From: Candidatus Parabacteroides intestinigallinarum
GTDB taxonomy: Bacteria > Bacteroidota > Bacteroidia > Bacteroidales > Tannerellaceae
DNA length: 64,000 bases
Reading direction: 5' to 3'
NCBI GenBank assembly: GCA_019114945.1
Contig: DXEN01000010.1
Location: 1 to 64,000 of the forward strand
Program-made: the position numbers and the translations under genes
Part shown: positions 2,209 through 63,817 of the stretch, piece by piece
Layout: each line of letters starts with the position of its first letter
How positions within the stretch are numbered: position 1 is the first letter of the stretch
The notes under the pieces: generated by a model
The model's database searches: none
The model's input: only the letters and a program-made list of their open reading frames with translations
Told to the model about the DNA's origin: nothing

Positions 2209-2372
2209 AAACACCTGCGTGTAGTCGCCGCTACACCTGCGTGTAGTCGCCGCTACACCTGCGTGTAGTTCGCGCTACACCTGCGTGTAGCTCCGGCTAC
2301 ACCTGCGTGTAGTTCCGGCTACACCCGCGTGTAGTTCCGGCTACACCCGCGTGCGGCTCCGGCCACCCGCCC
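2209..2372. repeat. Array A: 22-nt tandem palindromic repeat
   Basis: CTACACCTGCGTGTAG + 6-nt linker; unit starts 2209 (degenerate), 2231, 2253, 2275, 2297, 2319, 2341, 2363: constant 22-nt step. Confidence 0.95.
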
Positions 2373-2525
2373 GGGCGGGCGCCGGGGCACCCTCGCTCCT
2401 CTCCTTGTACCTGTTCATATACGCTTCGCTTATGGGCGTAAATGTAAGGAAAAATATTCAAAGAACGATGAAAAACGGGCGATGAATGATAAATTATGAT
2501 GGCCTCGCGGCTACGTGGCGCCCGG

Positions 2526-3302
2526 TCAGAGGTCGGCGATAATCGCCATCGCCTCCTCGGGGATGTCGGTGGAGAGGAAATCGGTGCCCAGCCGCGCTAT
2601 CTCGCGAATCTCCTCCGCGTCGTCCACCGTCCAGACGTTCGTCTTCAGCCCCAGCGCGTGGGCTTCCTCGAACCACTCCGGGCGCTCCAGCATTACCTTA
2701 TAATAATAGTTGATGCCCGTGAAGCCGAATTCCTTGACCTGCAGGGGTATCAAGTCGCCGCTCAGGTAGTAGACCGGCATATCCGGGGCGAGGCGGCGCA
2801 GCTCCTTGGCGGCCTCCAGGTTGAAGGTGATGAACTCCACGCGCTTCTCCATGCCGTGCTTCCGCACGGTCTCGACGGCTACGCGGGCCGCCTGGCGGTT
2901 CCGCTCGGGCGCGGCGTCGGTCTTCAGCTCGTAAATCAGCTGGAGGCCCTCCAGCTCCTTGCCTTTTTCCAAATATTGGTCCAAGGTGGGCAGGGTCTCG
3001 CCGTTCGGCAGGCGGATGTCCTTGATGCTGTCGTAGGGCACTTGGGGGATGAAGACGCCTTTCCGGATCTCTACCTCGTGGCAGACCACGGGCACGTCGT
3101 CCGCCGTCAGGTGCACGTCGAACTCGGAGCCGTAGCAGCCTATCTCGTGCGCCTTCACCAGCGAGGCGATGGAGTTTTGCGCCGAGCCCTCGCATTGCCA
3201 GTAGCCGCGGTGGGCGATGACCTTGGGTTTCTCTACCGGCCGCGCGCAGGAGAGGGCGAGCAGCCAGCCAAGTAATAACAGATGTAATTGGATTGTTCTC
3301 AT
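2526..3302 (-). CDS. Glycerophosphodiester phosphodiesterase family lipoprotein
   Basis: Lipoprotein-like signal (LLALSCARP), AHRGYWQCEGSAQNSIASL motif of GDPD. Confidence 0.85.
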   Translation of the reverse strand: MRTIQLHLLLLGWLLALSCARPVEKPKVIAHRGYWQCEGSAQNSIASLVKAHEIGCYGSEFDVHLTADDVPVVCHEVEIRKGVFIPQVPYDSIKDIRLPNGETLPTLDQYLEKGKELEGLQLIYELKTDAAPERNRQAARVAVETVRKHGMEKRVEFITFNLEAAKELRRLAPDMPVYYLSGDLIPLQVKEFGFTGINYYYKVMLERPEWFEEAHALGLKTNVWTVDDAEEIREIARLGTDFLSTDIPEEAMAIIADL

Positions 3303-3400
3303 TTGTATCTTCTCTTTTCTTTTTTCTATCGAACGGCAGAGACGCCATCATATGACGTCTCTACGATTCTATATGTTCTTGGTTCCTATCTTGATTGGGC

Positions 3401-5092
3401 TTATCGCTTCAGGTTCGGGGCCAGCGTCTTGTCCGTGGAAGGATACTCCACGTAGGCGCGGCTGTCGTCCCACGCGCCGGATATCGCGAGGCGCTCCTTC
3501 ACGTAGACGGGGCCTGTCACCATGTCGGCCTTATCGGGGTTCTCCTTCAGCCACTGCTCGGTGACCTCTATCTCCGGGTTCCTCAGGCGGTACTCGAAGT
3601 GGTCTTTCAGGCGGTTCATCCGCCGCTGGTCGTGGTAGCGGGTGGCGATGTTGCCGCGGTAATAGCCGGCTATCTCCCAACCGTGCTCGTTGTAGGCGGC
3701 CTCGGCCAGCTCCTCGTAGCCGAGGGTCGAGGGGTAGACGTTGTACGACGCGTCGTTGTAGTGCCCGTCCGCGCGGCGGCGCACGGTGTTCAGCAGCTCG
3801 ATGGCCAGCGCCTTATCGCCCTGCCCGGAGCGGCCCACGGCCTCGGCGTACCACAGGTATACCTGCGAGAGGCGGATGCACACGGCGGTCTTGTTGCCCC
3901 AGTAGTTGGTCTGCTGGTTGCAGGCGATGGTCTGGTCGTACTCCACCTCGTCGTTGCAGAAGGCGTCCACCAGGTAGTAGGGGTTGTTGCAGTTGGTCAC
4001 GTTCTCGTAAAACCAAGGCACCACCTTCTGGTCGCGGGTGTGGTAGTACACGTCGCCGAATACCGCTTTCTTGCGGGGCCCGGCGGGATAATCGAGCCAG
4101 AACTTGACCTCCGCCCGCACGTCGCTCCAGCCGCCGGCCTCCTCCGGTATGCCGGTGGGCGTGCGTGCCGCCTGCGAGGAGTCCTGGTTGCCGAAGTTGC
4201 GCGAGAAATGCACCGGCAGGAGGTTCTCCACCTGCGCCAGGTTGTACTGCCGGGAGTATATCTTCCAATACTCGTCGAACAGTCGGTACGGGTACGTCCC
4301 GTTGTCGCAGCCATCGATTACCTCCTTCGCCTTGCCCGCCGCCAGCGCGTAATACTCGGCGCCACCGTTGAGGGGCCATCCCGCCATCGTCAGGTAGACT
4401 TGCGCCAGCGCCGCTTTCGCCGCCGCCTGGCTGGCGATGGAGTTCAGCCCGTTCATGCTCCAAGGGGCCGACGAGAACTGGGCGGGCAGGTTCTCCTCGG
4501 CATATCGCAAGTCCGCCACGATGAAGTCGTACACCTCCCGCTCGGTGCTGGTGCCGATGTTCATATCCAGCTCATCTTTCTCGATGATGGGCAGCGACCC
4601 CCACGCCCGCACCAGGTTGAAGTAGGCGAACGCCCGCCAGAAGCGGCCCTCGCCGATGGCCATGTCAATCTCCTCCTGGCTCACCTCCGGCGTATTCGCC
4701 ACGCCGTTGATAATGAAGTTGGAAGCCTTGATGATGTTCCACCACGGCGCCCAGCAGCCGATGGTGGTATTGAGCAACATGGCGTTCGCGTCGTTGGCGA
4801 CGAACTGGTCGAAGTCGCCGAACTGCGACTTGCTGATGATGCTGGTCAAGTCGTCGCCCGCTATCACCGGCGTGGCGTCGCTGATGTACATCGTCGCCAT
4901 CTTGATTTGGTAGTACAACGCGTTGATGGAGCCTTCCAGGTCCGATCGCTCGGTGAAGGCGCTCAAGTTGGTCATCTGTCCCTTCGGGTCTTCCTCCAGG
5001 AAGTCGGAGCAAGCAGGAAACAGGCCGAGGACGGCGCATAAACCCGCCGCCGCGATTGTATGCTTATATGCTTTCATATCGATACGTCTCAT
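3401..5092 (-). CDS. RagB/SusD family nutrient uptake outer membrane lipoprotein
   Basis: Lipoprotein signal, SusD-like sequence, adjacent to SusC. Confidence 0.9.
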   Translation of the reverse strand: MRRIDMKAYKHTIAAAGLCAVLGLFPACSDFLEEDPKGQMTNLSAFTERSDLEGSINALYYQIKMATMYISDATPVIAGDDLTSIISKSQFGDFDQFVANDANAMLLNTTIGCWAPWWNIIKASNFIINGVANTPEVSQEEIDMAIGEGRFWRAFAYFNLVRAWGSLPIIEKDELDMNIGTSTEREVYDFIVADLRYAEENLPAQFSSAPWSMNGLNSIASQAAAKAALAQVYLTMAGWPLNGGAEYYALAAGKAKEVIDGCDNGTYPYRLFDEYWKIYSRQYNLAQVENLLPVHFSRNFGNQDSSQAARTPTGIPEEAGGWSDVRAEVKFWLDYPAGPRKKAVFGDVYYHTRDQKVVPWFYENVTNCNNPYYLVDAFCNDEVEYDQTIACNQQTNYWGNKTAVCIRLSQVYLWYAEAVGRSGQGDKALAIELLNTVRRRADGHYNDASYNVYPSTLGYEELAEAAYNEHGWEIAGYYRGNIATRYHDQRRMNRLKDHFEYRLRNPEIEVTEQWLKENPDKADMVTGPVYVKERLAISGAWDDSRAYVEYPSTDKTLAPNLKR

Positions 5093-8000
5093 TTAAAATC
5101 CTAATTTAAGTGTGAATGTGAATGTCCGTGTAGACGGGTAGTTGCCCATATCCAAGCCTACTTCCGTATCGCTGGTGGATTCGGAGGTCTCCGGGTCCAT
5201 GCCCTTGTACTTGGTGATGGTGAACAGGTTCTGCGCGCTGAATCCGATGGACACGTCGGCGAAACGGGTCTGCTTCTTCGGGAACAGGTACGAGATGCTC
5301 ACGTTCTGCAGGCGCAGGAAGTCGGCGTCCTCCAGCCATTGCGTGGAGCGGGAGAGCACGCGGCTCTCGGAGTTCTTGCTGCTGGCGAACTCCGCCCGGC
5401 TCTTGTCCGCCACGACGTCCCAGCTGTTGTAATAGCCATCGCGCGAGGTGATGAATCGGCCGAAGGCGTTCATCGTGCTGGTCGACATACGCACCATGTT
5501 CAAACGCTGGAAGCCTGTGCTGCCCCGGAAGAAGATATTCATCTCCCAGTTCTTGTAGCGCAGGGTGTTGTTCCAGCCGAAGTTCCATTTCGGGATGGGG
5601 TTGCCGGTGACGACGCGATCCTCGTCCGACGGCGATGTGGTGACGCCGCCGTCCTTGGTACGGTACAGGTTGGCGCCGTTGTCGTCGATGCCCGCCCATT
5701 CCCACAAGTGGAAATTACTGATGGGCAGCCCTTCCTCCATATAATAGACGTCCTCTATCAAGCCGTTGTTGCGGCCCGCGTCCGGTATGAGGAACTCCTC
5801 TCCGCCCAGGTTGGTCACCTCCGTCTTCAAGGAAGAGGCGGTCAGTATGGTCTGCCACTCGAAGTCTTTCGTCCGCACGGGATAGGCCGTCGCCGAGAGC
5901 TCCACGCCGGTGCTGTACATCTCGCCCACGTTGTCCCAATACGAGCCGCCGCCGTAGAACATCGGTATGCTCTTCTGGAACAGCAAATCCTTCGTATTCT
6001 TCCGGTACCAGTCGATGGTGAGGCTCAGGCGCTGGTCCAGCAAGGTGGCGTCCACGCCTACGTCGAACGAGTAGGTCTTCTCCCACGTCAGGTCCGGCGA
6101 GGCGTAGGTGTTCAGCCAGAAACCGGGATAAAGCGTCTCCATGCCATACGTGTAGTTGGCGAGCGTCAGCAGTCCCAGCGTGCCGTACGTCCCGATCGCC
6201 TGGTTGCCGGTCGCCCCCACGCTGGCGCGCAGCTTCAGTTGCTGGAACAAGTCCTGCTCCTTCATGAACTCCTCCTCCGATACATTCCACGCCAAGGCGC
6301 CCGAGGGGAAGTAGCCCCATTTATTGTTGATGAACTTCGAGGAGCCATCGGCACGCAACGTGGCGGTGGCGTAATAGCGGTTCTTATAGTTGTACATCAC
6401 CCGGCCGAAGGCGGACACCATCTGCTCCTTCGTATAGGAGGTAGAGCCGCTCAAGCCCGATTGCACGGCGCTCACGTTCCAGTAGCCCACCTTCTCCGAC
6501 AGCAAATCGTTGCCGCTCACGCCTACCGTCTTGTATTCTTTCTGATAAATCTCGAACACGCCGGTGGCGGTCAGGCTATGGTCGCCGAATTGCTTCTGGT
6601 ACGTCAGGTTGTTGGTGTTCTGCAACGTGACGGTGCGGTTCATGCTGTTGCTCATGCCGCTGATAGCGCTCGGCCAGGCTTTCGTTGACGTGAAATAGTA
6701 ATTCGAGCCGTTGGTCAAGGCCATCGAGCCCAAGGCGGAGAAGGTCAGTCCGTCGATAATCTTGAACTTCAAGTCCACGTAGCCATTCACGTTATAACGC
6801 TCGGCGTCCGTGTCGCGGGCTTTCAGCAAGCCATAGGGGCTCGCGTTCTGCGAGCTGTACGGGTCGCGCTGGTAAACGCCGTTCTCGTCGGTCAGCTCCA
6901 TCGTAGGCGAATAGTTCGCCATGTCCATCAAGTTGGCGGCCGTGTTGTGCGTCGTCTCTACCGAGCCCTCGATGTTGGTCGTGATGTTCAACCAATTGGT
7001 CACGTCGGAATCCAAATTGGCGCGGAAGCCGTATCGCTTCAGCTTCGACTCCTCCGTCACGCCGGTCTGGTTCAGGAACAGGCCGGAGACGAAATAGCGG
7101 TTCTTCTCGCTTCCGCCGGAGATATTCAACTTATAGTCTTGCGACACGCCCGTCTGGAAAATCAAATCCTGCCAATCGAGGCCCAGCGCTCCCGTCCGGT
7201 AGCCGTTCATCTCCTCCTCCGAGAAACGTGTGTCGGTCATCGCCTCCAGCGCTTGCGCGTACTCATAGGCGCTCAGTTGGTCCAACCGCTTCGGGATGTT
7301 GGAGATACCAATCTCGCCCGACACCGACACGTGCGGCTTACCCGCCTGTCCCCGCTTGGTCGTCACCAAGATGACGCCGTTCGCTCCCCGCGAGCCGTAG
7401 ATGGCGGTCGAGGAAGCGTCCTTCAAAATCTCGATGGAGGCGATATCGTCCGGATTCGTAATCGAAGCGGGTCCGCCGAACACGCCATCAATCACCCACA
7501 GCGGGTCGTTGCCGAAGTTAATGGACGAGACACCGCGGATACGGATATTCGCGTCGGTACCCAATTGCCCACCGGAATACGACGAAGCCTGCACGCCGGC
7601 CACACGCCCTTGCAGGATCTCAGACATTTTCTTGACCGGCTGCGCGTCGAACTGGCTATCGGACACCGAGGTAACCGCGCCCGTCAAGTCGCGTTTCCTC
7701 ACCGTGCCATAACCTACGACCACCACCTCGTCCAGCCGTTGCGTATCCTCTTGCAACTTGACAAGGAGCCGTGTCTGTCCTTCCCGGATGGTAATCTCTT
7801 GCTCCAGATAGCCGATATAACTCACGCTCAATGTAGCGCCCGCCGCGACGGAAAGGCTAAAGTTCCCATCTATATCCGACACGGTACCGTTGCCCGTCCC
7901 CTTCTCGATCACGTTGGCTCCGATAACCGGCTCCCCGTTCGCGTCTACGATTTTCCCGTTAATCTCCCGCGCTTGCTGGGAGACGCGGGGAGCCGTCCCG

Positions 8001-8374: not shown

Positions 8375-8515
8375 ACTTTTGTAACCGATTTATTATTAAT
8401 AAGTAATTCATACTATTTGCGAGAGCCGGGAGTCGTTGGCGCGGCTATCCGGCTCTATTCCTTTTTCATGGATTGTATCTATTCTTCCTTTCCCATAGGC
8501 ACATCTCGTTTTTAA

Positions 8516-9448
8516 TTAATGAATATAAATGGTGTTCGTCTCCTCGTCGCGTGTGTATTGGAAAGGGAAATCATAGCGCAGGACACGCAAGGCGTGCTCC
8601 ACCCCATCAGCGATACGGAATTTCCCGCGATAACCCAAGTCTTTTACCTGTTGATTCCGGATAACGATATGTACATCATAATATTTCTCAAGCTCCCGCA
8701 TAATCTCCTCGAATGACTGGCTCTCGATCGTAATAATCCCATCTTTCCAGGAAGAGCCACTCTTGTCGGCCGTTGTCGATACACGCAAGGTATCGCCTAC
8801 CAACTCCGCCGTTTGGCCGGGCGAAAGGTACACCGATTCCGCGTGAGCGGGCTGGTACAGTTTCACTTTCCCCTCATAAAGGGTTGCCTTGAAATCAGCT
8901 TTATCAGCGTACGCCTCCACGTCGAACGTCGTGCCCAGCACCTCTACACAATATTTGTCGGTCCGCACGATAAAAGGCTTCTCGCCTTTCGCGACCTCAA
9001 AATAGGCCTCGCCATCCAATTGAATCTCCCGCTCCCGCTCGGAAAAGACCGCCGGATACCGAAGCGTCGTATTCGCGTTCAACCACACGTTCGTACCATC
9101 GGACAGCTGAAGGTTCGTCCGATTGCCCGCCGGGACATGGACACATTGAAACGTTCGCGCCATGCGGCTCACCCGCTGATGCTCATACACATATCCAATC
9201 AGTAATAGCGACACGACAACAGCCGCTATCCGCAAACTCCAACGAACATAAGCAGGCATCCGCGTCTGTTTGGTCCGCCGGCTCGAAGGACGGTCGGCCA
9301 AAATCGTCGCGTCGAACCGAATCCGCTCCCGAATGAATCGCTTCCGGTTAGCCTCGTCCGCCTCGATCCATTGATGAATCCTTTCTTTCTCCTCCTCGGA
9401 AGCCTGCCCCAAGAAGTAACGTACCAATATATCTTGATTGATTCGCAT
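8516..9448 (-). CDS. FecR family anti-sigma factor (start at MRINQD preferred)
   Basis: FecR core NVWLNANTTLRYPAVFSEREREIQLDGEAYFEVAKGEKPFIV; the ORF extends to 9604 only through array B. Confidence 0.85.
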   Translation of the reverse strand: MRINQDILVRYFLGQASEEEKERIHQWIEADEANRKRFIRERIRFDATILADRPSSRRTKQTRMPAYVRWSLRIAAVVVSLLLIGYVYEHQRVSRMARTFQCVHVPAGNRTNLQLSDGTNVWLNANTTLRYPAVFSEREREIQLDGEAYFEVAKGEKPFIVRTDKYCVEVLGTTFDVEAYADKADFKATLYEGKVKLYQPAHAESVYLSPGQTAELVGDTLRVSTTADKSGSSWKDGIITIESQSFEEIMRELEKYYDVHIVIRNQQVKDLGYRGKFRIADGVEHALRVLRYDFPFQYTRDEETNTIYIH

Positions 9449-9538
9449 CTTTTTCCCTGTTTTCATTAATAGAGCAACCGAGGCATGAAAAATCCCAACC
9501 TCAAACCCGAAAATCTTTCGATAACGTTCGAACAACTT

Positions 9539-9604
9539 GTTCCATGGGCATGGCACAACCTGTCTCATAGGCATGGCACAATGTGTATCATGCCCATGGA
9601 ACAC
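9539..9604. repeat. Array B: 23-nt period, core ATGGGCAT/ATGCCCAT
   Basis: Cores at 9544, 9567 (ATAGGCAT), 9590; outer units form an inverted repeat TGTTCCATGGGCATG / CATGCCCATGGAACA. Confidence 0.85.
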
Positions 9605-9621
9605 TTTGTTTCACCCGTATA

Positions 9622-10209: not shown

Positions 10210-10237
10210 GATAAATGCCCTTCACGTTTTCGCGGGA

Positions 10238-13520: not shown

Positions 13521-13686
13521 TTTGTCTTGATGTTATTATAGTATATTATATATGTAAGCGGTCCAACCATCGCGAAGATACAAAATGTCTTTGGTTTTCA
13601 TCTTGTTTTTACGAAAACACAATAGCGTTTTTTTCATACATACGCATTTTTACTATCTTCGCGAGCACGTACATAACAAAATAAAG

Positions 13687-14961
13687 ATGAAGAATATTAA
13701 GATTTTCCCAAATGATTGGCTGCGTTTGCATCCATACAAACAAAGCACGCCCGTTGATTCTTATTATACAGGTATAGCCAACCAAATTTACGAGTATATG
13801 GAGAGGACCGAGTTGGCGAACTCTTTCGAGAAAGAGGAGACGAAACAAATCTGCATACGAATGGCCGCTTACTTCGAGGACGTAATTTCCGGAATCGGGA
13901 TATGGCGGACTTTCATTCTGACGCATAAGGAGATATTCGGATATTACCTTCCTTTTTATACGACAGACGATCATTATTACGACGACGAGGTGAATTACGA
14001 GGATGTGCGTTTCTTGCTTTGGCATTTCACGCAGCAATATCACGGGTTCCGGAAAGGCACGTTCGTGAATCCCGATAATCCGGCCAACGAATCGACCGCC
14101 CTACTCATCTACCAATTATTCTGCGATGAATGGACAACGGCGCCGGAGAACCCGCGGATGCAGGAGCTTTTCTCCGCAGAGACCAGCTATTCCGACAAAG
14201 AGAACGCTTACGACGATTTGCTGTGTTGGTTCCACTACGATTCATATCTCTTCCCGGAGGCCTTCCGGGAATTCAACGAATATACCAAAGAACGCTGGAA
14301 CGAGAACCCGGATATCAACCGGCAGCAACTCAACAACTTATTAATGAATTCCTACGAGATGCTGGCCTACGCCCATCCGACCTCGATGCTGGCCCTCACT
14401 TCCCCGCAATGGCTGGCCAAGATTTTACCGGCCGAGCACCCCGACCATGAGATGTTCCAAAAATCGGCGGACGAATCCGTAGCCGAGCCTTCCGAGGAGG
14501 TTCTCCAGGAAAACCAACGGCAATACGAGGCTTTCCGGAAAGCCGCGGGCGACTCCCTTTTGCTTTATTTCAATCACGCGAGTGATATTCGGAAATTCTT
14601 GACCGAGACGACCGGCATCATTCCCCCGGACGAGATTGCCTTGCCCGCGAGCTGGGACGGCCAACGAATCGCTATCTATGCCACGCCCCAAGAAGGTACG
14701 CAACTCATAGCCCAGGACGTAGAGGCAATCAAAGATCCCAACAACCCATTCTACAACCCCGAACGAGCCGCGAAACAGGCGCTCTCGTTCTTTATCGTCA
14801 AGCATTGCAACAGCTATATGCTGGAGGAGCTGATGAAGAGGGGCATGTTGGCCGACGCACAAACAAAAAGTCTGATCAGCGAGGAACGCAGAAAGGCAAT
14901 CATCCAGGACAACTGGAGATTCCTGGCCCGCTATTTTATCCGGGAATATCCAACAACGTAA
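13687..14961 (+). CDS. DUF3843-like hypothetical protein
   Basis: Start MKNIKIFPNDWLRLHPYKQSTPVDSYYTGIAN; -7 box TATCTTCG at 13654-13661. Confidence 0.7.
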   Translation: MKNIKIFPNDWLRLHPYKQSTPVDSYYTGIANQIYEYMERTELANSFEKEETKQICIRMAAYFEDVISGIGIWRTFILTHKEIFGYYLPFYTTDDHYYDDEVNYEDVRFLLWHFTQQYHGFRKGTFVNPDNPANESTALLIYQLFCDEWTTAPENPRMQELFSAETSYSDKENAYDDLLCWFHYDSYLFPEAFREFNEYTKERWNENPDINRQQLNNLLMNSYEMLAYAHPTSMLALTSPQWLAKILPAEHPDHEMFQKSADESVAEPSEEVLQENQRQYEAFRKAAGDSLLLYFNHASDIRKFLTETTGIIPPDEIALPASWDGQRIAIYATPQEGTQLIAQDVEAIKDPNNPFYNPERAAKQALSFFIVKHCNSYMLEELMKRGMLADAQTKSLISEERRKAIIQDNWRFLARYFIREYPTT

Positions 14962-14967: not shown

Positions 14968-15052
14968 TTTTCCCTTCGAGGAAAAACAGAATTCCCTTCG
15001 GAAGAAATCTCATTTTCCTTCGAAGGGAATTTTATTTTTGTCCGAGAAAAAA
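14968..15052. repeat. Array I: 22-nt period, core TTCCCTTCG/CGAAGGGAA
   Basis: CTTCG at 14974, 14996, 15018 and a degenerate TCCGAG unit in register (CG at 15043). Confidence 0.7.
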
Positions 15053-15342: not shown

Positions 15343-18300
15343 ATGAGAAGAAAGGACAATCATTTTAACAACAAGCAAGGTCTGTATGACCCCGCTTATG
15401 AGCACGACGCTTGTGGAGTAGGAATGATCGTAAACATTCATGGAGAGAAGTCGCACGAGATCGTAGAGGCCGCCTTGAAAGTATTGGAGAATATGCGGCA
15501 TCGCGGCGCGGAAGGCGCCGACAATAAGACGGGCGATGGCGCGGGAATCCTGCTGCAGATTCCGCATGAGTTTATCCTGTTGCAAGGCATCCCGGTGCCC
15601 GAGAAGGGGAAATACGGGACCGGCCTTATTTTCTTGCCCAAAGACGAGGAACAGCAATCTTGCATTTTCAGCATCCTGATCGAGGAAATCGAGAAAGAAG
15701 GATTGAACTTAATGCACTTACGCAAGGTGCCCGTCAACTCTCCTATCTTGGGAAAAGACGCCCAAGCGACCGAGCCGGACATCAAGCAGATATTTATCAC
15801 CGGCCGCAACGACCAACAAGAGCTGGAGCTGAAGCTATATATAATACGTAAGCGCATCGAGAGAAGGATAGCGGCATCCGACCTTCCTGGCAAGAGGGAT
15901 TTTTACATCGTGTCGCTCTCTACCCGGAATATCGTTTACAAAGGGATGTTGGAGACGATGCAACTACGGCATTATTTCCCGGACTTGACGCAGCCTTATT
16001 TCACGAGCGGATTGGCGTTGGTCCATTCGCGCTTCAGCACGAACACGTTCCCCACGTGGAGCCTGGCGCAGCCATTCCGCCTGCTGGCGCACAACGGGGA
16101 AATCAATACGATCCGGGGAAACCGGGGATGGATGGAGGCGCGGGAAAGCGTCCTTTCATCAGCAAGGATACCGGATATCAACGACATACGTCCCATTATC
16201 CAACCGGGCATGAGCGATAGCGCCTCGCTGGACAACGTGTTGGAGTTCTTTGTCGCTTCCGGGATGAGCCTGCCGCACGCGATGGCGATGCTGGTGCCGG
16301 AAAGCTTCAACGAGAAGAACCCGATATCCGAGGACTTGAAGGCGTTCTACGAGTATCACTCCATCTTGATGGAACCGTGGGACGGACCCGCCGCCCTGTT
16401 GTTCAGCGATGGCCGGTACGCCGGCGGCATGCTGGACCGCAACGGACTCCGCCCCGCCCGCTACCTGATTACGAAAAACGATATGATGGTCGTGGCATCC
16501 GAGGTGGGCGTTATGGATTTCGAGCCAAGCGAGATCAAGGAGAAAGGCCGCTTGCAACCGGGCAAAATACTGTTGGTCGACACGGAGAAGGGCGAGATTT
16601 ATTACGATAACGAGTTGAAAAGCCAATTGGCGAACGCCCAGCCTTACCGGGCTTGGTTAGAGAAAAACCGGGTGGAACTGAATGAGTTGAAGTCGGGACG
16701 GAAAGTGCCGCATAAAATAGAGGGGTACGATCGACGATTGCGGTTATTCGGATACAGCCGCGAGGATATCGAGCGAATCATCGTTCCGATGTGCACGGGG
16801 GCCGCGGAGCCGGTCGGCTCGATGGGCAACGATACGCCGCTGGCCGCGTTGTCCGACCGCCCGCAGATGCTATACAACTATTTCCGCCAACAATTCGCGC
16901 AAGTGACCAACCCGCCTATCGACCCGATTCGCGAGGAATTGGTGATGAGCCTGACCGAATATATCGGAGCCGTCGGTCGCGATATCCTGACGCCGAGCGA
17001 GAGCCATTGCAAGATGGTGCGCCTGAACCATCCCATCCTGACCAATACGCAACTCGACCTGCTCTGCAACATCCGGTACAAAGGTTTTAAAAGCGTAAAA
17101 CTACCCACGCTCTTCGAGGCGGAGAAAGGACACCTCGGATTGAAATCGGCCTTGGACAATCTTTGCAGGCAGGCGGAGCGATCCGTGGACGAGGGCGTGA
17201 ACTATATCATCCTGAGCGATCGGGACGCGGATGCCCATAAGGCGGTCATTCCCTCTTTGTTGGCGGTCAGCGCGGTGCATCATCACCTGATAGCCGTGCA
17301 AAAGCGGGTACAAACGGCGTTGATCGTCGAGACGGGCGAGATGCGCGAGGTGATGCACGCCGCCTTGCTATTAGGCTACGGGGCGAGCGCGGTCAATCCC
17401 TATATGGCTTTCGCCATCCTGGACGATTTGGTAGAGAAGAAAGAGATACAATTGAATTACGATACCGCCGAGAAGAATTACATCAAGGCGCTCCGCAAGG
17501 GATTGCTCAAGGTGATGAGCAAGATGGGCATCAGTACGATCCGGAGTTATCGAGGCGCGAAACTGTTCGAGGCGGTGGGCCTGAGCCGCGATTTGGCGGA
17601 CGCTTACTTCGGCGGAACCGCGAGCGGCATCGGAGGTATCCGCTTGGAAGAGATCGCGGCGGACGCGATCGCGATGCACGACGAGGCTTTCCAGCGTCCG
17701 GTGGATTCTTTATTGGCGCACAAAGGCATTTACTCGTACCGGAAAGATGGCGAACGGCACGCTTGGAACCCGGAGACCATCTCTACGTTGCAACTGGCCA
17801 CACGGTTGGGAAGCTATAAGAAGTTCAAGGAATATACCCGGATGGTGGACGAGAAGGAGGAGCCTATCTTCCTGCGGGATTTCCTGACATTCAAGAAGCG
17901 TACGCCCGTCCCGTTGGAGCGGGTCGAGCCGGAGGAGGCCATCATGCGCCGCTTCGTGACGGGAGCGATGAGCTTCGGCTCGATTAGCAAGGAGGCGCAC
18001 GAGACGATGGCGATGGCGATGAACAAGATACACGGCCGCAGCAACACGGGCGAGGGCGGCGAGGACGCCTCCCGTTTCCAGCCCCGCGAGGATGGCTTGT
18101 CGCTCCGTTCCGCCATCAAGCAGGTAGCGTCCGGACGCTTCGGCGTGACAACTGAGTATCTGGTGAACGCCGACGAGATTCAGATAAAGATCGCGCAAGG
18201 GGCGAAACCGGGCGAGGGCGGACAGCTGCCGGGGTATAAAGTGAACGAGGTCATCGCCAAGACCCGCCATTCCATTCCGGGTATCTCCTTGATATCGCCC

Positions 18301-19881: not shown

Positions 19882-21309
19882 ATGGGAAACCCAAAAGCAT
19901 TTCTTACGATACACAGACAAGAGGCGGGTTATCGGCCCGTACACGAGCGCATAGATGATTTCAGCGAGGTAGAGCAAACCCTCAATAGCACCGACCGCCG
20001 CACGCAAGCCTCGCGCTGCATGGATTGCGGCGTGCCCTTCTGCCACTGGGCGTGCCCGCTCGGCAACAAACAACCGGAATGGCAGGATATGCTGTACAAA
20101 GGACGCTGGCGCGACGCTTACCTGACGCTGGCGCAAACCGACGATTTCCCCGAATTCACCGGGCGCGTCTGTCCCGCCCTCTGCGAGCAGAGCTGCGTGC
20201 TGAAGTTGAGTTGCGACGAGCCGGTCACCATCCGCGAGAACGAGGCGGCCATCGTGGAGGCGGCTTTCCGCGAGGGCTATATCCAGCCCATCCAACCCGT
20301 CCGCAACGGCAAGCGGGTGGCGGTAATCGGGAGCGGCCCCGCCGGACTGACCGTCGCCAACCGGCTGAACCGGAAAGGCTACGAGGTGACCGTCTTCGAG
20401 AAAGACGAGCTGCCGGGCGGCCTGCTGCGCTTCGGCATCCCGAACTTCAAGTTAGGGAAAAACATCATCGACCGCCGCCTGCGCATCTTGCGGGAGGAAG
20501 GCATCCAGTTCAGGACGAACACGATGGTCGGGAAAGAGATATTGGCGCGGGAGGTGGTCGATACGTTCGACGCGGTCTGCGTGGCGATTGGCGCCGAGGT
20601 ACCTCGCGACCTTCCCGTCGAGGGTCGTAACCTGCGGGGCATCCACTTCGCCTTGGAATTGCTGGGCCAACAGAACCGCGTATTGGAAGGAATCGCCATT
20701 CCACCGAAGAATTTAATCAACTGCAAAGGCAAGAAGGTGCTGATTATCGGTGGAGGCGACACGGGAAGCGATTGCGTCGGCACGGCGAACCGCCAAGGGG
20801 CCGCCAGCGTCACCCAGATCGAGATCCTGCCGAAACCGCCCGTCGGCTACAACTCGGCGACACCTTGGCCCATGTATCCCAAGATACTGAAGACAACCAG
20901 CAGCCACGAGGAAGGTTGCGAGCGGCGCTGGAGCTTGGCGTCGAACCGCTTCGTCGGCGAGCGGAACAACGTGCGGGGCGTCGAGGTGGAAGAGGTCGAA
21001 TGGCTGCCCGCGCCTGACGGAGGACGCCCCGTCATGCGGCCCACCGGCAAGCGCGAGGTAATAGAGGCCGACTTGGTATTCCTTGCCATGGGCTTCCTAC
21101 ATCCGGAGCAAGAGGGATTGGTGAAAGAGCTCCAACTGGCGACGGACGCACAGAAGAACATCGCCACCGACGCGAACGGACAGATAGCGGGCGGGAAAAT
21201 CTTCGCCTGTGGCGACGCCGTGAGCGGGGCGAGCCTCGTGGTGAAGGCGATGGCCTCCGGCCGGAAAACTGCCGAAGCCATCGACCGTTTCCTGTCCCCT
21301 ACGCCGTAG
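19882..21309 (+). CDS. gltD: Glutamate synthase small subunit
   Basis: Cys-rich CMDCGVPFCHWACPLGN, FAD motif VIGSGPAGLTVANRLNRKG. Confidence 0.97.
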   Translation: MGNPKAFLTIHRQEAGYRPVHERIDDFSEVEQTLNSTDRRTQASRCMDCGVPFCHWACPLGNKQPEWQDMLYKGRWRDAYLTLAQTDDFPEFTGRVCPALCEQSCVLKLSCDEPVTIRENEAAIVEAAFREGYIQPIQPVRNGKRVAVIGSGPAGLTVANRLNRKGYEVTVFEKDELPGGLLRFGIPNFKLGKNIIDRRLRILREEGIQFRTNTMVGKEILAREVVDTFDAVCVAIGAEVPRDLPVEGRNLRGIHFALELLGQQNRVLEGIAIPPKNLINCKGKKVLIIGGGDTGSDCVGTANRQGAASVTQIEILPKPPVGYNSATPWPMYPKILKTTSSHEEGCERRWSLASNRFVGERNNVRGVEVEEVEWLPAPDGGRPVMRPTGKREVIEADLVFLAMGFLHPEQEGLVKELQLATDAQKNIATDANGQIAGGKIFACGDAVSGASLVVKAMASGRKTAEAIDRFLSPTP

Positions 21310-21489
21310 GCAATCGATTTCCTTGCGGAAATCGCTTCCCACACGCTGTGGCAACGAATTTCTTCGTGGAAATCGCTTCCCACACGCTGTGGCAACGAAT
21401 TTCTTCGCGGAAATTTACTCCCTACGCCGTAGGCTACCGATTTCTTCGTGGAAATTCGCTCCCTACGCCGTAGGCTACCGGAAATCCCG
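21298..21489. repeat. Array G: 41-nt tandem repeat of two alternating palindromes
   Basis: CCTACGCCGTAGG or CCACACGCTGTGG at 21298, 21339, 21380, 21421, 21462, exact 41-nt step, with (C)GAATTTCTTCGTGGAAAT(C)G palindromes between. Confidence 0.95.
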
Positions 21490-21545
21490 CTTTGAAAGTT
21501 TGAAATCATAAATTTGAAATCATAAATCATAAATTCGAAACGACT

Positions 21546-25071: not shown

Positions 25072-25195
25072 ATGCACCTATGTTCTCCGGCCAACGCACA
25101 TATGTGTCTTTGCCAACACACGTATGTTAAAATGCGAACGCACGTACGTGTCTTCACTAACGCACGTATGTTAAAATACCAACACACCTATGTTC
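25072..25195. repeat. Array D: 22-nt period, core (G/A)CAC(G/C)TATGT
   Basis: Six units at 25074, 25096, 25118, 25140, 25162, 25184; linkers also match array H. Confidence 0.95.
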
Positions 25196-25368
25196 CTTTC
25201 AGCCCCCACTCCGACGCTTTATCCGAATAATTATAAATTGAAACAAAAACAGCATAGTTTGATTATTATTTGATAGTATAGAACCCTATAAATATATCAA
25301 ACTATTATTATCAATAGATTTATATCTCTTTTAGTCACCTATCGCTACAACACAAAAGCAAAATATCA

Positions 25369-36286: not shown

Positions 36287-36528
36287 GATAACCGCTTTCC
36301 CCGCGTGGGACAACCGAAATCGGGACGGAGAAGCGCTGTCTACCCAGTCGACAGTACCAATCCGGCGGGAGAACCGCTTTCCCCGCGGGGGACAATCGAA
36401 ATCGGGGCGGAGAAGCGCTATCTACCCAGTCGACAGTACCAATCCGGCGGGAGAAGCATCGTCGACTCAGTCGACAGCCCTTATCCGTGCCGATTGACGT
36501 TGTCGACCGAATCGCGATCCCCGCTCCC
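36287..36528. repeat. Array F: 41-nt tandem repeat
   Basis: GATAAC/GAGAA(C/G)C at 36287, 36328, 36369, 36410, 36451; GTCGACAG at 36347, 36429, 36470 (82, 41). Confidence 0.93.
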
Positions 36529-36989: not shown

Positions 36990-37075
36990 TTATGATGATG
37001 GGCATTGCCAACCCTTTAGAATGCCCATGCTAAGAAACGAACGATGCCCATCATTAGCACCTAAGGATGCCCATC
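36990..37075. repeat. Array C: 23-nt period, core ATGGGCAT/ATGCCCAT (same core as array B)
   Basis: Cores at 36998, 37021, 37044, 37067, constant 23-nt step; last unit lies in the helicase 3' end. Confidence 0.92.
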
Positions 37076-38989
37076 GCCGGAAGCGTTGAACACCAATACT
37101 TTCCCGTGCTTCTCGATATAATCGTACAACGCTTTGTAGAAGGCGTGGCGCGTGAGCGTGGAGGCATCGCCGACGATTATCAATTTCATCCGGGCACGGG
37201 TGATGGCGACGTTCATCCGGCGCAAGTCGTTCAAGAAACCGATCCGTCCCTCTTCGTTGGCACGAACCAGGCTGATCAGGATCACGTCCCGCTCCTGCCC
37301 CTGGAAACCATCCACCGTATGCGCCGTGATCAAGCCTCGCAACGGCCGCAAGGAAGCGTCCCGCTTAATCAATCCGCGCATGCACCGCACTTGCTCCTTG
37401 TAAGGCGATATCAAACCGAAGTCGATACGCTCCTCCAGCACCCGCTCCTTCCCGATCCGCTCGATATAAGCGCGTAGCTGGCCGACCAACAACTCCGCCT
37501 CTTGCCGGTTCACCCGGCTCATGCTTTCCGAAGGGGTCTCCTCCGCGAAGTCGAGATTCGAGGTGTCGTACCATACGACGGGCGTGTCCAGCCGCAAGAT
37601 ACCCCGCTGGCCCACCTCGGGAGCGGACTCCAACTCGTCGTGATAAAACCAATGGGAAGAGAAGCGCATGATGTCCTCGTGCATGCGATACTGCACCCGT
37701 AGCAGGGAAACCGTCTCCGGTTTCGAGGTAGCGATCTTCCGCATCAGGGTATGGCTCAATCCGCCTCGTTCGGCCTCCACGCATTTCACCGTGGGCGGCA
37801 ATTGATGATGGTCGCCCGCCAGGATTACCCGATCCGCCTTGCCGATCGCTATCCAGCAAGCCGCCTCCAAGGCTTGCGCCGCCTCGTCGATGAATAGCGT
37901 GGTGAAATGCCGGTTCATCATCACCCGGTTGGCCGAACCGACCAACGTGCAGGCGACAACCCGCGCCTCGTCGAATAACTCGCTATCGATCTTGACCTCC
38001 AGCTCCGTGGCACGGAACCTGAGGCGGGACAAGCGGTTGCGAATCGTATCCTGCTCCTCGCGGCTACGCCCGCGCCGGTTGGCCCGCATCTCGCGGATCG
38101 CCTTCCGGATGCCCCACAACTCCGCGTAATCCGGATGCGCCTCGAAACGTCGCTCATAAGTAAACGAGAGCATCTTGTCGTTCACGCGTGTCGGGTTCCC
38201 GACACGGAGCACCGCGATACCCCGGTCGGTCAGTTTCTCCGATATCCAATCGACGGCGGTATTGCTTTGGGCGCACACCAACACCTGGTTCTCCCGATGC
38301 AACGTCTCGTAGATAGCCTCCACCAAGGTCGTAGTCTTTCCCGTACCGGGAGGGCCATGCACGATCGCTACCTCCTTGGCGGCCAGCACATGATTCACCG
38401 CCGCCTCTTGCGACGGATTCAACCACGGGAAACGAATGGGGAACAATGCGCGCCACTGGGTCTTCGTGGTTCCCAGAAACACGTCCCGAAGGTGCGCCAA
38501 GGTATTGTTTCTCGCCCGCATGACATCCGACAAGGCGGCGAACATGGAGCGGTAGCTTGTCTCGTCGAAATACAGTTGCACGCCAAGGTCGCCGCCTTTC
38601 CCTTGCAAATCCACCAAGGCCGCGGGCGAAGGCAGGATAACCACCATCCGATCCTCGCGCACATAACTGATTACGGCGGAGAAATCCAAGAACCTCGGCT
38701 TTCCGAGACTATCGGTAGTAAAAAAACAGACCGGGCGACCGTGCTCGAAATTATGCTCGGTCTCCCAGTCCTCCACACGCTCGATCTCAATCACCAGCTG
38801 GTTCAACGAATTGTAATAACTCCGCCCCGGCGCGACCGGATACCAGCAAATTCCCCGCGCGATCCGTTTCCGCAAACCCATGCTCTCGGCCTGCTGCCGA
38901 TAAAGCTCTTTCTCGTAGGTATATTCCATCCGTAAAAGGTCGTTCTGCCGTTGCAGGTCCGCGAGCGGGGAAAGCTGATTGTTTGCCAT
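37061..38989 (-). CDS. SMUBP2/IGHMBP2-like superfamily 1 DNA/RNA helicase
   Basis: VHGPPGTGKTTTLVEAIYETL; FIDEAAQALEAACWIAIGKADRVILAGDHHQLPPTV; DGFQGQERDVILISLVRAN. Confidence 0.92.
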   Translation of the reverse strand: MANNQLSPLADLQRQNDLLRMEYTYEKELYRQQAESMGLRKRIARGICWYPVAPGRSYYNSLNQLVIEIERVEDWETEHNFEHGRPVCFFTTDSLGKPRFLDFSAVISYVREDRMVVILPSPAALVDLQGKGGDLGVQLYFDETSYRSMFAALSDVMRARNNTLAHLRDVFLGTTKTQWRALFPIRFPWLNPSQEAAVNHVLAAKEVAIVHGPPGTGKTTTLVEAIYETLHRENQVLVCAQSNTAVDWISEKLTDRGIAVLRVGNPTRVNDKMLSFTYERRFEAHPDYAELWGIRKAIREMRANRRGRSREEQDTIRNRLSRLRFRATELEVKIDSELFDEARVVACTLVGSANRVMMNRHFTTLFIDEAAQALEAACWIAIGKADRVILAGDHHQLPPTVKCVEAERGGLSHTLMRKIATSKPETVSLLRVQYRMHEDIMRFSSHWFYHDELESAPEVGQRGILRLDTPVVWYDTSNLDFAEETPSESMSRVNRQEAELLVGQLRAYIERIGKERVLEERIDFGLISPYKEQVRCMRGLIKRDASLRPLRGLITAHTVDGFQGQERDVILISLVRANEEGRIGFLNDLRRMNVAITRARMKLIIVGDASTLTRHAFYKALYDYIEKHGKVLVFNASGDGHP

Positions 38990-54400: not shown

Positions 54401-54583
54401 GAAACTACTCCCTAAGCAGACTGAAAACTACTTAGTAAGCAGACCGGAAACTGCTTAGTAAGCAGTACCCCCCTCTACTTAGTAAGCAGACACCCCCTCT
54501 GCTTACTAAGCAGCCGAGCATCTACTTAGGGAGCAGTTTCCGGACTACTTAGGGAGCAGTTTCCAGACCGCTCGGGAAGCAGT
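54401..54583. repeat. Array E: 23-24-nt period, core CTACTTAGTAAGCAG
   Basis: Eight units at 54405, 54428, 54451, 54475, 54499, 54522, 54545, 54568. Confidence 0.95.
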
Positions 54584-54671
54584 TTGTCCCATTTTCTTAT
54601 CAAAAGTCAAGAAAGCGCGGGGAAAAAGCAAAAAACAAGCCGCGAAGCATACAAGCAATCGCGAGCCGCCG

Positions 54672-57874: not shown

Positions 57875-57878
57875 TTTC

Positions 57879-59276: not shown

Positions 59277-59279
59277 TCC

Positions 59280-59840
59280 CTATCGAATTACTCGTACGAG
59301 CCCTCCCGCCCCCAATTTGATGATATGGGAAGGTTCCGCCGGGGTTTTGTCCTCCTGACGATATCCCACGATATAATCCACCCCTTTCTTTATGGTCTCA
59401 GAAATCTCCCCGAAATTGGCGGGCGAAGGCTCGCCACTCACATTGGCGGAGGTCGACACTAACGGTCTGCGGAAACGCTCGCAAAGTTTTTGGGAGAATT
59501 CCTCGTTCGTGACGCGTATCCCCACGCTCCCATCTTCCGCCAACAAGTTCGGCGCGAGGTTCTTCGCGTTCGAATAAATAATAGTCAATGGCTTGTCGGC
59601 CAGACGAATCAAATCCCAAGCGATATCCGGCACATCCGACACGTAACGGTCCAACTTTGCGTCGCTATCGAGCAAGACCAACATGGCCTTATTGTCCGAC
59701 CGTCGCTTCAGCTCATACACCCTTTGTACGGCCTTCTCGTTGGTCGCGTCGCAACCAATCCCCCAGATCGTGTCTGTCGGATACAGGATAATGCCACCCG
59801 CTGACAGCACCTCACAAGCTTTTTTAATGTCTTCTATCAT
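59280..59840 (-). CDS. L-threonylcarbamoyladenylate synthase (Sua5/YrdC family)
   Basis: AGGIILYPTDTIWGIGCDATNEKAVQRVYELKRRSDNKAMLVLL; STSANVSGEPSPANFGEI. Confidence 0.95.
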   Translation of the reverse strand: MIEDIKKACEVLSAGGIILYPTDTIWGIGCDATNEKAVQRVYELKRRSDNKAMLVLLDSDAKLDRYVSDVPDIAWDLIRLADKPLTIIYSNAKNLAPNLLAEDGSVGIRVTNEEFSQKLCERFRRPLVSTSANVSGEPSPANFGEISETIKKGVDYIVGYRQEDKTPAEPSHIIKLGAGGLVRVIR

Positions 59841-60051
59841 TCTATCCTTATTATATCCTCGCGAATGTACAAATCATTCTCCGACTTCAAAAAAATAATA
59901 ACAAAAAAACGATTTTCACACAGCCATACCCTATATCCCATTTTTAATTCCTATTTTTACGGATTAAATGCGCCCTGTAAGCATCACCCGCCTGTTTTAT
60001 CCGAGGGTGAAGGACGCTATGTGAGCGAAAAAAAGAAAAAAACAATATATA

Positions 60052-61776
60052 ATGATTAACAAATGGAACTTTCGAACCCCATCCGAAGAAGAGTTACGCA
60101 AGAGGGATTTGCTGGCGGCTGAGTTAGGGCTCAGCCCCGTGATTTGTCTGCTACTCGTTCAACGAGGTATCACTTCTCCCGAAGAGGCGAAACGGTTTTT
60201 TAAACCTAATTTAAATGATTTGCACGATCCATTCCTGATGCCGGATATGGACAAGGCGGTAAAACGCTTGAACAAGGCATTGGGAAACAAAGAGAAGATC
60301 TTGATCTATGGCGATTACGACGTAGATGGGACGACGGCGGTATCGCTCGTCTACAAATATCTGCGTCCTTATTCATCTTATCTGGACTTTTATATTCCCG
60401 ATAGGTACGACGAAGGGTATGGCATCTCTTATAAAGGTATCGATTATGCCGTCGAGAATGGCATATCGTTGGTGATATCATTGGATTGCGGCATCAAGGC
60501 GATCGAGAAAATCGAGTACGCCAAGCAAAAAGGTGTCGATTTCATCATCTGCGATCACCACATGCCCGACGCTACCCTACCCGACGCGGTAGCCGTATTG
60601 GATGCCAAACGCGCGGACTCCCAATATCCGTACGAGCACCTGTCCGGTTGCGGGGTAGGATTCAAATTCATGCAAGCGTTCGCCCAAAGCAACAACTTCC
60701 CTTTCACGGATTTGGAGAAATTGCTTGAGCTGACCGCCGTAAGCATCGCCTCGGACATCGTTCCCATCACGGGCGAGAACCGGATCTTGGCATATTATGG
60801 CCTAAAGCAACTGAACAATAACCCCAGCTTCGGCTTGAAGGGAATTATCGACGTATGCGGGCTATCGGGCAAAGAGATTACGATCAGCGATATCGTGTTC
60901 AAGATAGGCCCCCGTATCAACGCCTCCGGACGCATGATGAACGGGAAAGAGGCCGTGGAGCTACTCTTGTCTAAAGATAGGGCCACCGCCAAGGAGAAAA
61001 GCGAGAGCATCAATCAATACAACGAGGAACGGAAGGAGCTGGATAAAAAAATCACGGACGAGGCGAACGCGATCATCGAGGAGGTACAGCACAAGGAAGA
61101 CCGGAAGGCGATCGTCGTATATAATCCCAACTGGCACAAGGGCGTGATTGGCATCGTCGCCTCGCGACTGACCGAGAAGTATTACCGGCCGGCCGTGGTG
61201 CTTACGAAATCCTCCGGCTTGATCACCGGCTCGGCACGCTCCGTCATGGGATTCGATATCTATAAGGCGATCGAGAGTTGCAGGGATTTATTGGAAAACT
61301 TTGGCGGACACACATACGCGGCCGGCCTCTCCCTAAAAGAGGAGAACCTGGAAGCTTTCACCGAGCGATTCCAGCGAATAGCGGCGGAGGAAATCATACC
61401 GGAGCGAATGATTCCGCAAATAGATATCGACGCGGTCCTGGATTTGCGAGAGATCAATCAAAAGTTCGTAAGCGACCTGAAGAAGATGAGTCCCTTCGGA
61501 CCGGAGAACCAAAAACCCATCTTTTGCTCGCTCGACGTAAAAGATTATGGGACGAGCAAACTGGTCGGCAAGGAATTGGAGCATATCAAGCTGGAATTGA
61601 TCGATGGAAACTCGAGCACGCCCATCCATGCCATCGCGTTCGGGATGCACAAGCATAACGAGCACATCAAGAGCATGAAACCTTTTAACATCTGCTACAC
61701 GATCGAGGAAAACACCTACAACGGTAACACCTCTATCCAGCTGATGATCAAGGATATCAAATCGGGCGGAATATAA
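60052..61776 (+). CDS. recJ: Single-stranded-DNA-specific exonuclease RecJ
   Basis: ILIYGDYDVDGTTAVSLVYKYL; ICDHHMPDATLPDAVAVLDAKR. Confidence 0.96.
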   Translation: MINKWNFRTPSEEELRKRDLLAAELGLSPVICLLLVQRGITSPEEAKRFFKPNLNDLHDPFLMPDMDKAVKRLNKALGNKEKILIYGDYDVDGTTAVSLVYKYLRPYSSYLDFYIPDRYDEGYGISYKGIDYAVENGISLVISLDCGIKAIEKIEYAKQKGVDFIICDHHMPDATLPDAVAVLDAKRADSQYPYEHLSGCGVGFKFMQAFAQSNNFPFTDLEKLLELTAVSIASDIVPITGENRILAYYGLKQLNNNPSFGLKGIIDVCGLSGKEITISDIVFKIGPRINASGRMMNGKEAVELLLSKDRATAKEKSESINQYNEERKELDKKITDEANAIIEEVQHKEDRKAIVVYNPNWHKGVIGIVASRLTEKYYRPAVVLTKSSGLITGSARSVMGFDIYKAIESCRDLLENFGGHTYAAGLSLKEENLEAFTERFQRIAAEEIIPERMIPQIDIDAVLDLREINQKFVSDLKKMSPFGPENQKPIFCSLDVKDYGTSKLVGKELEHIKLELIDGNSSTPIHAIAFGMHKHNEHIKSMKPFNICYTIEENTYNGNTSIQLMIKDIKSGGI

Positions 61777-61787
61777 GGAGAGGGAAG

Positions 61788-63704
61788 GTGGACATCTACC
61801 ATGAAATATTAGAGCGATATTGGGGATATCCTTCCTTCCGCCCCCTGCAAGAGGAGATCATACATTCCGTATGCGCCGGCAATGATACGTTAGGATTGAT
61901 GCCGACAGGAGGTGGCAAATCGATTACTTTCCAAGTACCGGCCTTAACGATGGAAGGTATTTGCGTCGTCGTCACGCCACTGATCGCCTTGATGAAAGAT
62001 CAAGTGGACAACCTTCGCAGGGTGGGAATCAAGGCTACGGCGGTTTATTCAGGGATGAGCCGCCACGAGATTATCACGCAACTGGAGAATTGTATCTTCG
62101 GCGATTACAAATTCCTTTATGTCTCGCCCGAGCGTTTGGCTACGGAAATCTTCCGGGCCAAACTCGCGGCGATGAAGGTTTGCTTGTTGGTCGTGGACGA
62201 GAGCCATTGCATCTCCCAATGGGGCTACGATTTCCGTCCCTCGTACCTTCGCATCGCGGAGATACGGGACGCGTTGCCCGACGTACCGGTATTGGCGCTA
62301 ACCGCCACCGCTACGCGAGAGGTGATAGATGACATTCAGGAACGGCTGAAGTTCAAGCGAAAGAATGTGTTCCGGAAAAGTTTCGCCCGGAAAAACCTGG
62401 CGTATATTGTCCGCCGGACCGACGATAAGCTAAATACGCTCATCCATATATTAGGAAAAGTCCCAGGTTCGGCCATCGTATATGTACGCAACCGGAAACG
62501 GACCAAGGAAATAGCCACCAGCTTACGAGAAGCGGGAATATCGGCCGATTTTTTCCACGCCGGCTTGAACCGGGACGAAAAAGAATCCCGGCAAGCCCGC
62601 TGGAAGGACAACGAATGCCGGGTAATCGTCTCGACCAACGCTTTTGGCATGGGCATCGACAAGCCGGACGTACGTTTAGTAATCCATGTCGATATGCCGG
62701 GATCGCTGGAAGAATACTACCAAGAAGCCGGACGAGCCGGGCGGGATGAGAAAAAAGCGTACGCCGTAGCGCTATGCTCGCCGACAGACAATGCCAAGTT
62801 AAAAAAGAGGTTATCGGACGAGTTCCCGGAAAAAGCGTTTATCTATCGGGTGTACGAGGCTTTAGGCAACTATTTCCAGATTGCCGTAGGATATGGTTTG
62901 GATACGGTACACGATTTCTCGCTGACCGATTTCTGCTCGGTCTACAAACTCCCGATCTTGCAAACGCATCATGCCCTGAAAATCTTGGAATTATCCGGAT
63001 ACATCGAGTATACCGAAGAGGTGGACAACGCTTCCCGCCTGATGTTTACGGCAACCCGCGACGAATTGTATAAATATTTAGGCGATAACCAGCGCACGAA
63101 TACGGTGGTGCAAGCGTTATTGCGTTCTTATACAGGTTTGTTCGCCGACTACGCGTACATCGACGAGAGCACGATCGCGACCCGTGCGCATGTCACGCCC
63201 CAAGAGGTATACGACACCTTGGTCGGTTTGTCCAAATACAGGATCGTAAACTATATCCCCCATAAGAAAACCCCGTTGATTATCTATACCCAAACCCGCG
63301 AGGATCAGCGTTATTTAGTGATTCCCCGCACGGCGTATGAGGAACGAAAGAAACGCTTGGAAAAACGGATCGGGAAGGTCCTGGAATATATCAACGAGGA
63401 GCACGTCTGCCGCTCACGTATGTTGCTCGCCTATTTCGGGGAAACGGACGCGGAACCTTGCGGCCAATGCGATGTATGTTTATCCAAACACGCGTCCCGG
63501 CTCACGAACGGAGAGTTCGAAGCGATTCGAGAAGCATTATCGCGAGAGCTGGCCGATCGTCCGCTGCCCGTTAAAGAACTTATCGAAAAAATGCCTTTCA
63601 CGCAAGAGAAAAGCCTCACGGCGATTCGCTTCCTGGCGGATCAAGACGAGCATTTCACCTTAGAGGATGGCTATCTCTCCCTCCAGACGACAACAAACCC
63701 GTAA
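61788..63704 (+). CDS. recQ: ATP-dependent DNA helicase RecQ (GTG start)
   Basis: MPTGGGKSITFQVPAL; VVDESHCISQWGYDFRPSY; GRAGRDEKKAY; Cys cluster CRSRMLLAYFGETDAEPCGQCDVC. Confidence 0.96.
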   Translation: MDIYHEILERYWGYPSFRPLQEEIIHSVCAGNDTLGLMPTGGGKSITFQVPALTMEGICVVVTPLIALMKDQVDNLRRVGIKATAVYSGMSRHEIITQLENCIFGDYKFLYVSPERLATEIFRAKLAAMKVCLLVVDESHCISQWGYDFRPSYLRIAEIRDALPDVPVLALTATATREVIDDIQERLKFKRKNVFRKSFARKNLAYIVRRTDDKLNTLIHILGKVPGSAIVYVRNRKRTKEIATSLREAGISADFFHAGLNRDEKESRQARWKDNECRVIVSTNAFGMGIDKPDVRLVIHVDMPGSLEEYYQEAGRAGRDEKKAYAVALCSPTDNAKLKKRLSDEFPEKAFIYRVYEALGNYFQIAVGYGLDTVHDFSLTDFCSVYKLPILQTHHALKILELSGYIEYTEEVDNASRLMFTATRDELYKYLGDNQRTNTVVQALLRSYTGLFADYAYIDESTIATRAHVTPQEVYDTLVGLSKYRIVNYIPHKKTPLIIYTQTREDQRYLVIPRTAYEERKKRLEKRIGKVLEYINEEHVCRSRMLLAYFGETDAEPCGQCDVCLSKHASRLTNGEFEAIREALSRELADRPLPVKELIEKMPFTQEKSLTAIRFLADQDEHFTLEDGYLSLQTTTNP

Positions 63705-63715
63705 CGCGCCATAAA

Positions 63716-63817
63716 TCGCACCTATGTTCTCCGGCCGATGCACGTATGTGTCTTTGCCAATACACGTATGTTAAAATGCCAACGCACGTATGTGTCTTTG
63801 CCAACACACCTATGTTC
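63716..63817. repeat. Array H: 22-nt period, homologous to array D
   Basis: Units at 63718, 63740, 63762, 63784, 63806; linkers tctccggcc, tgtctttgccaa, taaaatgc match array D. Confidence 0.95.

Follow-up and report, generated by a model that had tools for sequence, protein, structure and literature searches.

Intergenic ladders of symmetric words at a fixed pitch of about two helical turns in Parabacteroides and part of the Bacteroidales

Introduction

Repeats with unit lengths of 22, 23 and 41 nt were reported, without locations, in the genome of Porphyromonas gingivalis W83 and have since been treated as separate elements (PMC4596501). BrickBuilt is a 23-nt minisatellite contained in a MITE of P. 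gingivalis, which is equipped with a leader, a tail and IS5-like terminal repeats (GAGACC...); outside P. gingivalis and P. gulae, matches are limited to the terminal repeats and weak BLASTx hits (PMC4596501). MITE464/PgRS of P. gingivalis is built of 41-nt tandem repeats in about 10-20 copies (cited in PMC4596501). In enterobacteria, REP/BIME elements are located near the 3′ ends of genes, occur in several kinds per genome and have been reported to bind proteins such as gyrase and IHF (PMC2817692). No description of arrays of the kind reported here was found for Bacteroides or Parabacteroides in the open-access literature. Plasmid iterons, among them the 22-bp repeats of R6K, are tandem protein sites spaced at about two helical turns; they belong to a single replication origin, and these direct sites are mostly asymmetric.

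Results and Discussion

The window is a stretch of 64,000 nt (contig DXEN01000010.1, positions 1 to 64,000) from the genome of Candidatus Parabacteroides intestinigallinarum, a 99.8%-complete genome of 2.98 Mb in 95 contigs. Gene calls were made in this analysis on the basis of codon usage. A previous sequence-only reading of the window had described nine intergenic arrays, A to I, and had compared them with the 22-, 23- and 41-nt repeats of P. gingivalis, which are confirmed by the published record (PMC4596501). The arrays were located by matching cores and periods to the letters given in that reading. All nine are present, each of them exceeds all 300 shuffled versions of its sequence, and they are independently backed by TRF and the lag scan of the window.

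Array A, 2211..2378, unstranded: 22-nt units, core CTACACCTGCGTGTAG; TRF, lag scan, 0/300 shuffles
Array B, 9523..9613, unstranded: 23-nt units with ATGGGCAT-type and ACAACNTGT words; TRF, shuffles
Array C, 36990..37082, unstranded: 23-nt units, four ATGGGCAT octamers; shuffles, whole-genome spacing test
Array D, 25072..25198, unstranded: 22/44-nt units, strongest at 44, core GCACGTATGTGT; TRF, shuffles
Array E, 54402..54590, unstranded: 23-nt units with some 24-nt steps, core CTGCTTAGTAAGCAG; TRF, core scan, shuffles
Array F, 21297..21480, unstranded: 41-nt units; TRF, dyad analysis, shuffles
Array G, 36290..36490, unstranded: 41/82-nt units, strongest at 82, GTCGAC dyads; TRF, shuffles
Array H, 14970..15052, unstranded: 22-nt units, core TTTCCTTCGAAGGAAA; lag scan, core scan, shuffles
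Array I, 63718..63817, unstranded: 22/44-nt units, strongest at 44, same element as D; TRF, shuffles

Array A lies upstream of the HU-HIG gene 1647-2135 (minus strand), directly alongside it. Array B sits between an ECF-sigma-like gene and fecR; it contains ATGGGCAT at 9544 and the complement at 9590, 46 nt apart. In array C the octamer or its complement recurs at 36998, 37021, 37044 and 37067, in steps of exactly 23 nt. This array occupies the gap between convergent genes that follows an HxlR gene, and it overlaps the 3′ end of a helicase gene (37061-38989). The best named match of a helicase of the window, 80% identical, comes from an uncultured Parabacteroides. The unit of array F consists of CCTACGCCGTAGG alternating with a GATTTC-TTCG-GAAATC dyad at a distance of 20.5 nt. 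Array H starts 8 nt beyond the stop codon of the gene 13585-14961. The family of array G was also found on contigs C43, C84, C85 and C91. Contig C84 of G000 carries runs of 71-74-nt direct repeats that resemble CRISPR arrays (L023:13-1081 and 4262-4523).

The arrays share with BrickBuilt the intergenic and dispersed location, imperfect 23-nt tandem units with unevenly conserved positions, a strain-variable number of units and the same broad bacterial group; dispersed intergenic 23-nt units are found in the ATGGGCAT and CTTAGTAAG families. They differ from it in that many unrelated cores stand on one pitch and in that the units are symmetric. The BrickBuilt terminal repeat GAGACCTTTGCA had 0 matches in the window when up to 2 mismatches were allowed, and the suggested membership in BrickBuilt is not supported, as terminal repeats of the IS5 type are missing from the window. 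MITE464/PgRS resembles the present arrays in its 41-nt tandem repeats of about 10-20 copies; however, many of the 41/42-nt arrays described here are composed of two alternating half-period dyads. The MITE464/PgRS terminal repeats GAGACTGTTGCA and TGCAACGGTCTC likewise gave 0 matches in the window. Like REP/BIME elements, the present arrays are extragenic imperfect palindromes in tandem mosaics, come in several kinds and lie near 3′ ends, but their unit is shorter, their pitch is strictly fixed and the genome is devoid of RAYT. The GTAG/CGTC foot tag was seen, by inspection of the main families, in array A alone (CTACAC...GTGTAG). REP/BIME is the closest functional model. In contrast to iterons, the present arrays are spread over the chromosome and possess several symmetric cores.

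Intergenic arrays were scanned over all lags from 10 to 130 in about 2.9 Mb of sequence: 1.03 Mb of the own genome, 0.39 Mb of Parabacteroides/Tannerellaceae loci, 0.40 Mb of a congeneric genome and 1.13 Mb of mostly Bacteroidaceae loci, the comparative set being drawn largely from loci around one helicase gene. The periods concentrate at 21-24 nt (101 arrays) and 40-46 nt (39 arrays); the range of 25-39 nt is nearly empty (6 arrays), and 11 and 5 arrays have periods of 15-20 and 47-60 nt, respectively. The quantisation of the period proposed for the window therefore holds outside it as well, with unrelated cores. A separate 14-nt class, which the sequence-only reading had not mentioned, is also common (56 arrays). 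This class is A+T-rich and non-palindromic, accounts for 40 arrays in the 1.03 Mb of the own genome and is present in outgroups too. It is exemplified by positions 21496-21534 of the window and by many other intergenic sites, with words such as TTTGAAATCATAAA or AATTGTCAATTGTC. A pitch of about two helical turns, also claimed in the sequence-only reading, fits the periods of 21-22 nt and is a looser description of 23 nt.

The density of ladders is 69 per Mb in the first 0.72 Mb of the own genome versus 44, 30 and 33 per Mb in the other three sets. It falls to 3.5 per Mb in other Bacteroidales families and is 5.7 per Mb elsewhere in the class; 200 kb of E. coli contained 0 ladders. The period peaks are missing from all three of these sets. 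A few other Bacteroidales families do have clear ladders, for example that of the genome G223, where ACCAGTACTGGT recurs every 22-23 nt. In this genome (2.2 Mb, about 55% GC) the ladders are very regular and have free spacers (L238:168-246 and 16219-16297). The pattern had been suggested to be an order-level family. It does reach well past the genome under study, but it is rare in most sampled Bacteroidales families: the ladder trait follows a part of the Bacteroidales and not the whole order.

The 22/23-nt ladders are unevenly distributed relative to genes. They were found in 33 convergent versus 17 divergent gaps (baseline 35.6 kb versus 72.6 kb, p=2e-6), and in co-directional gaps 59 of 77 ladders are on the stop-codon side (p=3e-6). 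The 14-nt repeats, which are not palindromic, show an equally strong preference for convergent gaps (14 convergent, 1 divergent). The 3′-end bias was for this reason rejected as a proof of function: position alone shows none. At L056:3184-3269 a ladder stands at the position that is taken by a single long terminator-like hairpin in a related species (L088).

As the best explanation we tentatively propose that the ladders are REP/BIME-like dispersed arrays of dimer-binding sites, set at a pitch of about two helical turns and read by a putative protein. Core scans, which were run without any spacing demand, gave a distance of 22 nt in 22 of 26 steps for TTTCCTTCGAAGGAAA, of 22 or 44 nt in 29 of 37 steps for GCACGTATGTGT and of 41 nt in 7 of 8 steps for GTCGAC. 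The information content of the spacers in these scans is mostly 0.0-0.5 bits, except for the 41-nt GTCGAC family, which retains some informative spacer positions. The pattern ATGGGCATN{4,34}ATGSSCAT, which leaves the distance of ATGGGCAT pairs free over 12-42 nt, was searched in whole genomes of the genus, and 267 of 273 matches were at 22 or 23 nt. This hand tally covers the ten genomes that have clear ladders and four or more matches, counts inverted pairs on both strands and excludes G023 (five matches, three of them at 22). The reversed control of the pattern was near zero.

Comparison of B. fragilis strains shows what is retained within an array. In an orthologous array pair, 1 of 56 core sites and 21 of 36 spacer sites differ, and divergence is far lower in the flanks than in the spacers. 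One ladder differs between two strains by exactly 44 nt, which corresponds to two units (L079:7375-7444 versus L086). Other Bacteroides and Phocaeicola lack the L079 ladder at the corresponding site. At the 3′ end of the helicase gene, no conserved ladder was found at orthologous sites across Parabacteroides.

The cores had been described as locus-specific and mostly unrelated, which proved to be overstated. Single-linkage clustering assigned the 78 ladders of the 1.03-Mb sample to about 22 groups, some of them mixed, and six or seven groups contain 4-15 loci. The families of arrays C, E, G and H are dispersed as well, with 5-15 loci each in this sample. Arrays D and I represent one element, 89% identical, with 7 copies in the own genome, in which the linkers are conserved too and follow the same order; it has no match in any other sampled genome of the class. 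The ATGGGCAT octamer is common to two subfamilies, one with TAAG/CTTA arms and a period of 23 nt and the other with GGAA/TTCC-like arms and a period of 22 nt. The genome G002 carries both of them, each keeping its own period, which implies that the period belongs to the subfamily.

These data bear on the possibility that the arrays are non-functional mobile minisatellites of the MITE type, similar to BrickBuilt, in which slippage or recombination takes place inside a mobile element and the copies inherit the period. The seven D/I copies with their identically ordered linkers, the shift by whole units in B. fragilis and the precedents in P. gingivalis (PMC4596501) are in line with such an origin, and the 3′-end bias shared with the 14-nt repeats may be mere promoter avoidance. 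The free spacers, however, are nearly constant in length, the cores are conserved next to spacers that have diverged beyond the flanks, one pitch is found across many unrelated families, and the terminal repeats of BrickBuilt and PgRS are absent from the window. The original argument that simple slippage is not sufficient is borne out, as slippage fails to explain strict spacing combined with free spacers. Drift after neutral duplication would be expected to alter the length of such worn spacers, which is almost unchanged. We regard the minisatellite explanation as rather unlikely.

The units were further analyzed for symmetry. Palindromy is significant (p<=0.01) in 45 of 110 arrays; the statement that almost every unit is palindromic is correct for many arrays, but not for all. 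Among the 23 arrays of the 41/42 class, a second dyad was detected in 16 (p<=0.1), nine of which have it within 1.5 nt of the half-period. In these nine arrays, two words alternate as the rungs of a ladder at steps of about 20.5 nt; the remaining ones are without a second dyad at the half-period.

The significant palindromy, the location past stop codons and in convergent gaps, and a pooled excess of compensatory changes within arrays (66 double changes versus 39 expected) might also be produced by ladders of hairpins, acting in RNA as terminators or mRNA stabilizers, or by DNA cruciforms. The within-array excess is tentatively attributed to related units and subfamilies. Within families across loci, arm covariation is lacking in three of four cases (z = 0.02, -0.91 and -0.48), which speaks against the hairpin as the functional unit, and it is weak in the ATGGGCAT family (z = +2.45). 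No pairing across the spacer was detected for the 23-nt type, and one of seven spacer-crossing pairs of the 22-nt type gave a weak signal (p=0.04). In the transcribed sense, GT mismatches are as frequent as AC mismatches (97 versus 100). T-runs at the downstream end of the array were counted in 7 of 77 cases versus 4 of 77 in antisense, and Rfam returned no match at gathering score. The equal numbers of GT and AC mismatches, together with the missing covariation in three of four families, favor the reading of the arms as half-sites of a dimer over an RNA hairpin, and we consider hairpin ladders improbable. The movement of REP/BIME-type palindromes by a RAYT-like single-strand transposase is suggested by the like architecture (extragenic palindromes, tandem mosaics, dispersal, 3′ bias), but is very improbable and largely refuted for this genome, in which PF01797 (Y1_Tnp) was not found while the E. 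coli control was positive, and several cores are free of GTAG/CGTC tags.

The arrays combine a fixed pitch, a conserved core, a mostly free spacer and dispersal, and in three of four families their symmetry is not accompanied by pairing. Fixed spacing, a symmetric consensus and a free spacer, by which tandem dimer sites are recognized, are all found here, the spacer of the 41-nt family being partly conserved. The pitch common to unrelated words suggests a putative reading protein. According to the proposed dimer-site reading, the sites would be two-fold symmetric, about 14-20 bp long and intergenic, with a center-to-center pitch of about 21-23 bp; alternatively, two kinds of site would alternate at about 20.5 bp and appear as a period of 41/42. 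Each family would be read in trans by a putative dimeric DNA-binding protein; adjacent dimers would share approximately one face of the helix and probably touch each other. Selection would keep the site and the distance, and most of the spacer would drift. In the manner of REP/BIME elements, the arrays occur as scattered copies, gain and lose entire units and are tolerated for the most part at a distance from promoters. A role in chromosome folding or transcription may be envisaged.

Several findings argue against the dimer-site reading. The many differing cores would require either many proteins or one of loose specificity. The conserved linkers of the D/I element are as expected of recent copying of a single element, and both the residual covariation of the ATGGGCAT family and the within-array pairing excess also weigh against it. 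HU-HIG is a weak lead as a candidate reader. About 10 matches to this family are present in the own genome and 1-3 in most other Bacteroidales families. At a coarse sampling of families, 10 ladders per 420 kb were found in HU-HIG-rich families versus 2 per 223 kb in HU-HIG-poor ones, and 2 of the 4 HU-HIG genes found are near a ladder. A broader and more doubtful version is that the symmetric sites, unrelated to each other and varying with the species, have as their reader a single class of architectural or regulatory protein, for which the two-turn pitch is a requirement. This would constitute a chromosome-organizing or 3′-end regulatory system of the Bacteroidaceae/Tannerellaceae type, in which the geometry is kept and the letters are replaceable.

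Conclusion

The 22-, 23- and 41-nt repeats of P. gingivalis may exemplify a more general rule that holds in a major clade of gut bacteria. Under the suggested rule, the pitch of symmetric words is fixed and their sequence is free, with roughly 30-70 arrays per Mb. The old observation in P. gingivalis thereby becomes a testable question, namely which protein reads the pitch, and the arrays can serve as ready probes in the search for proteins that structure the chromosomes of Bacteroides and Parabacteroides.
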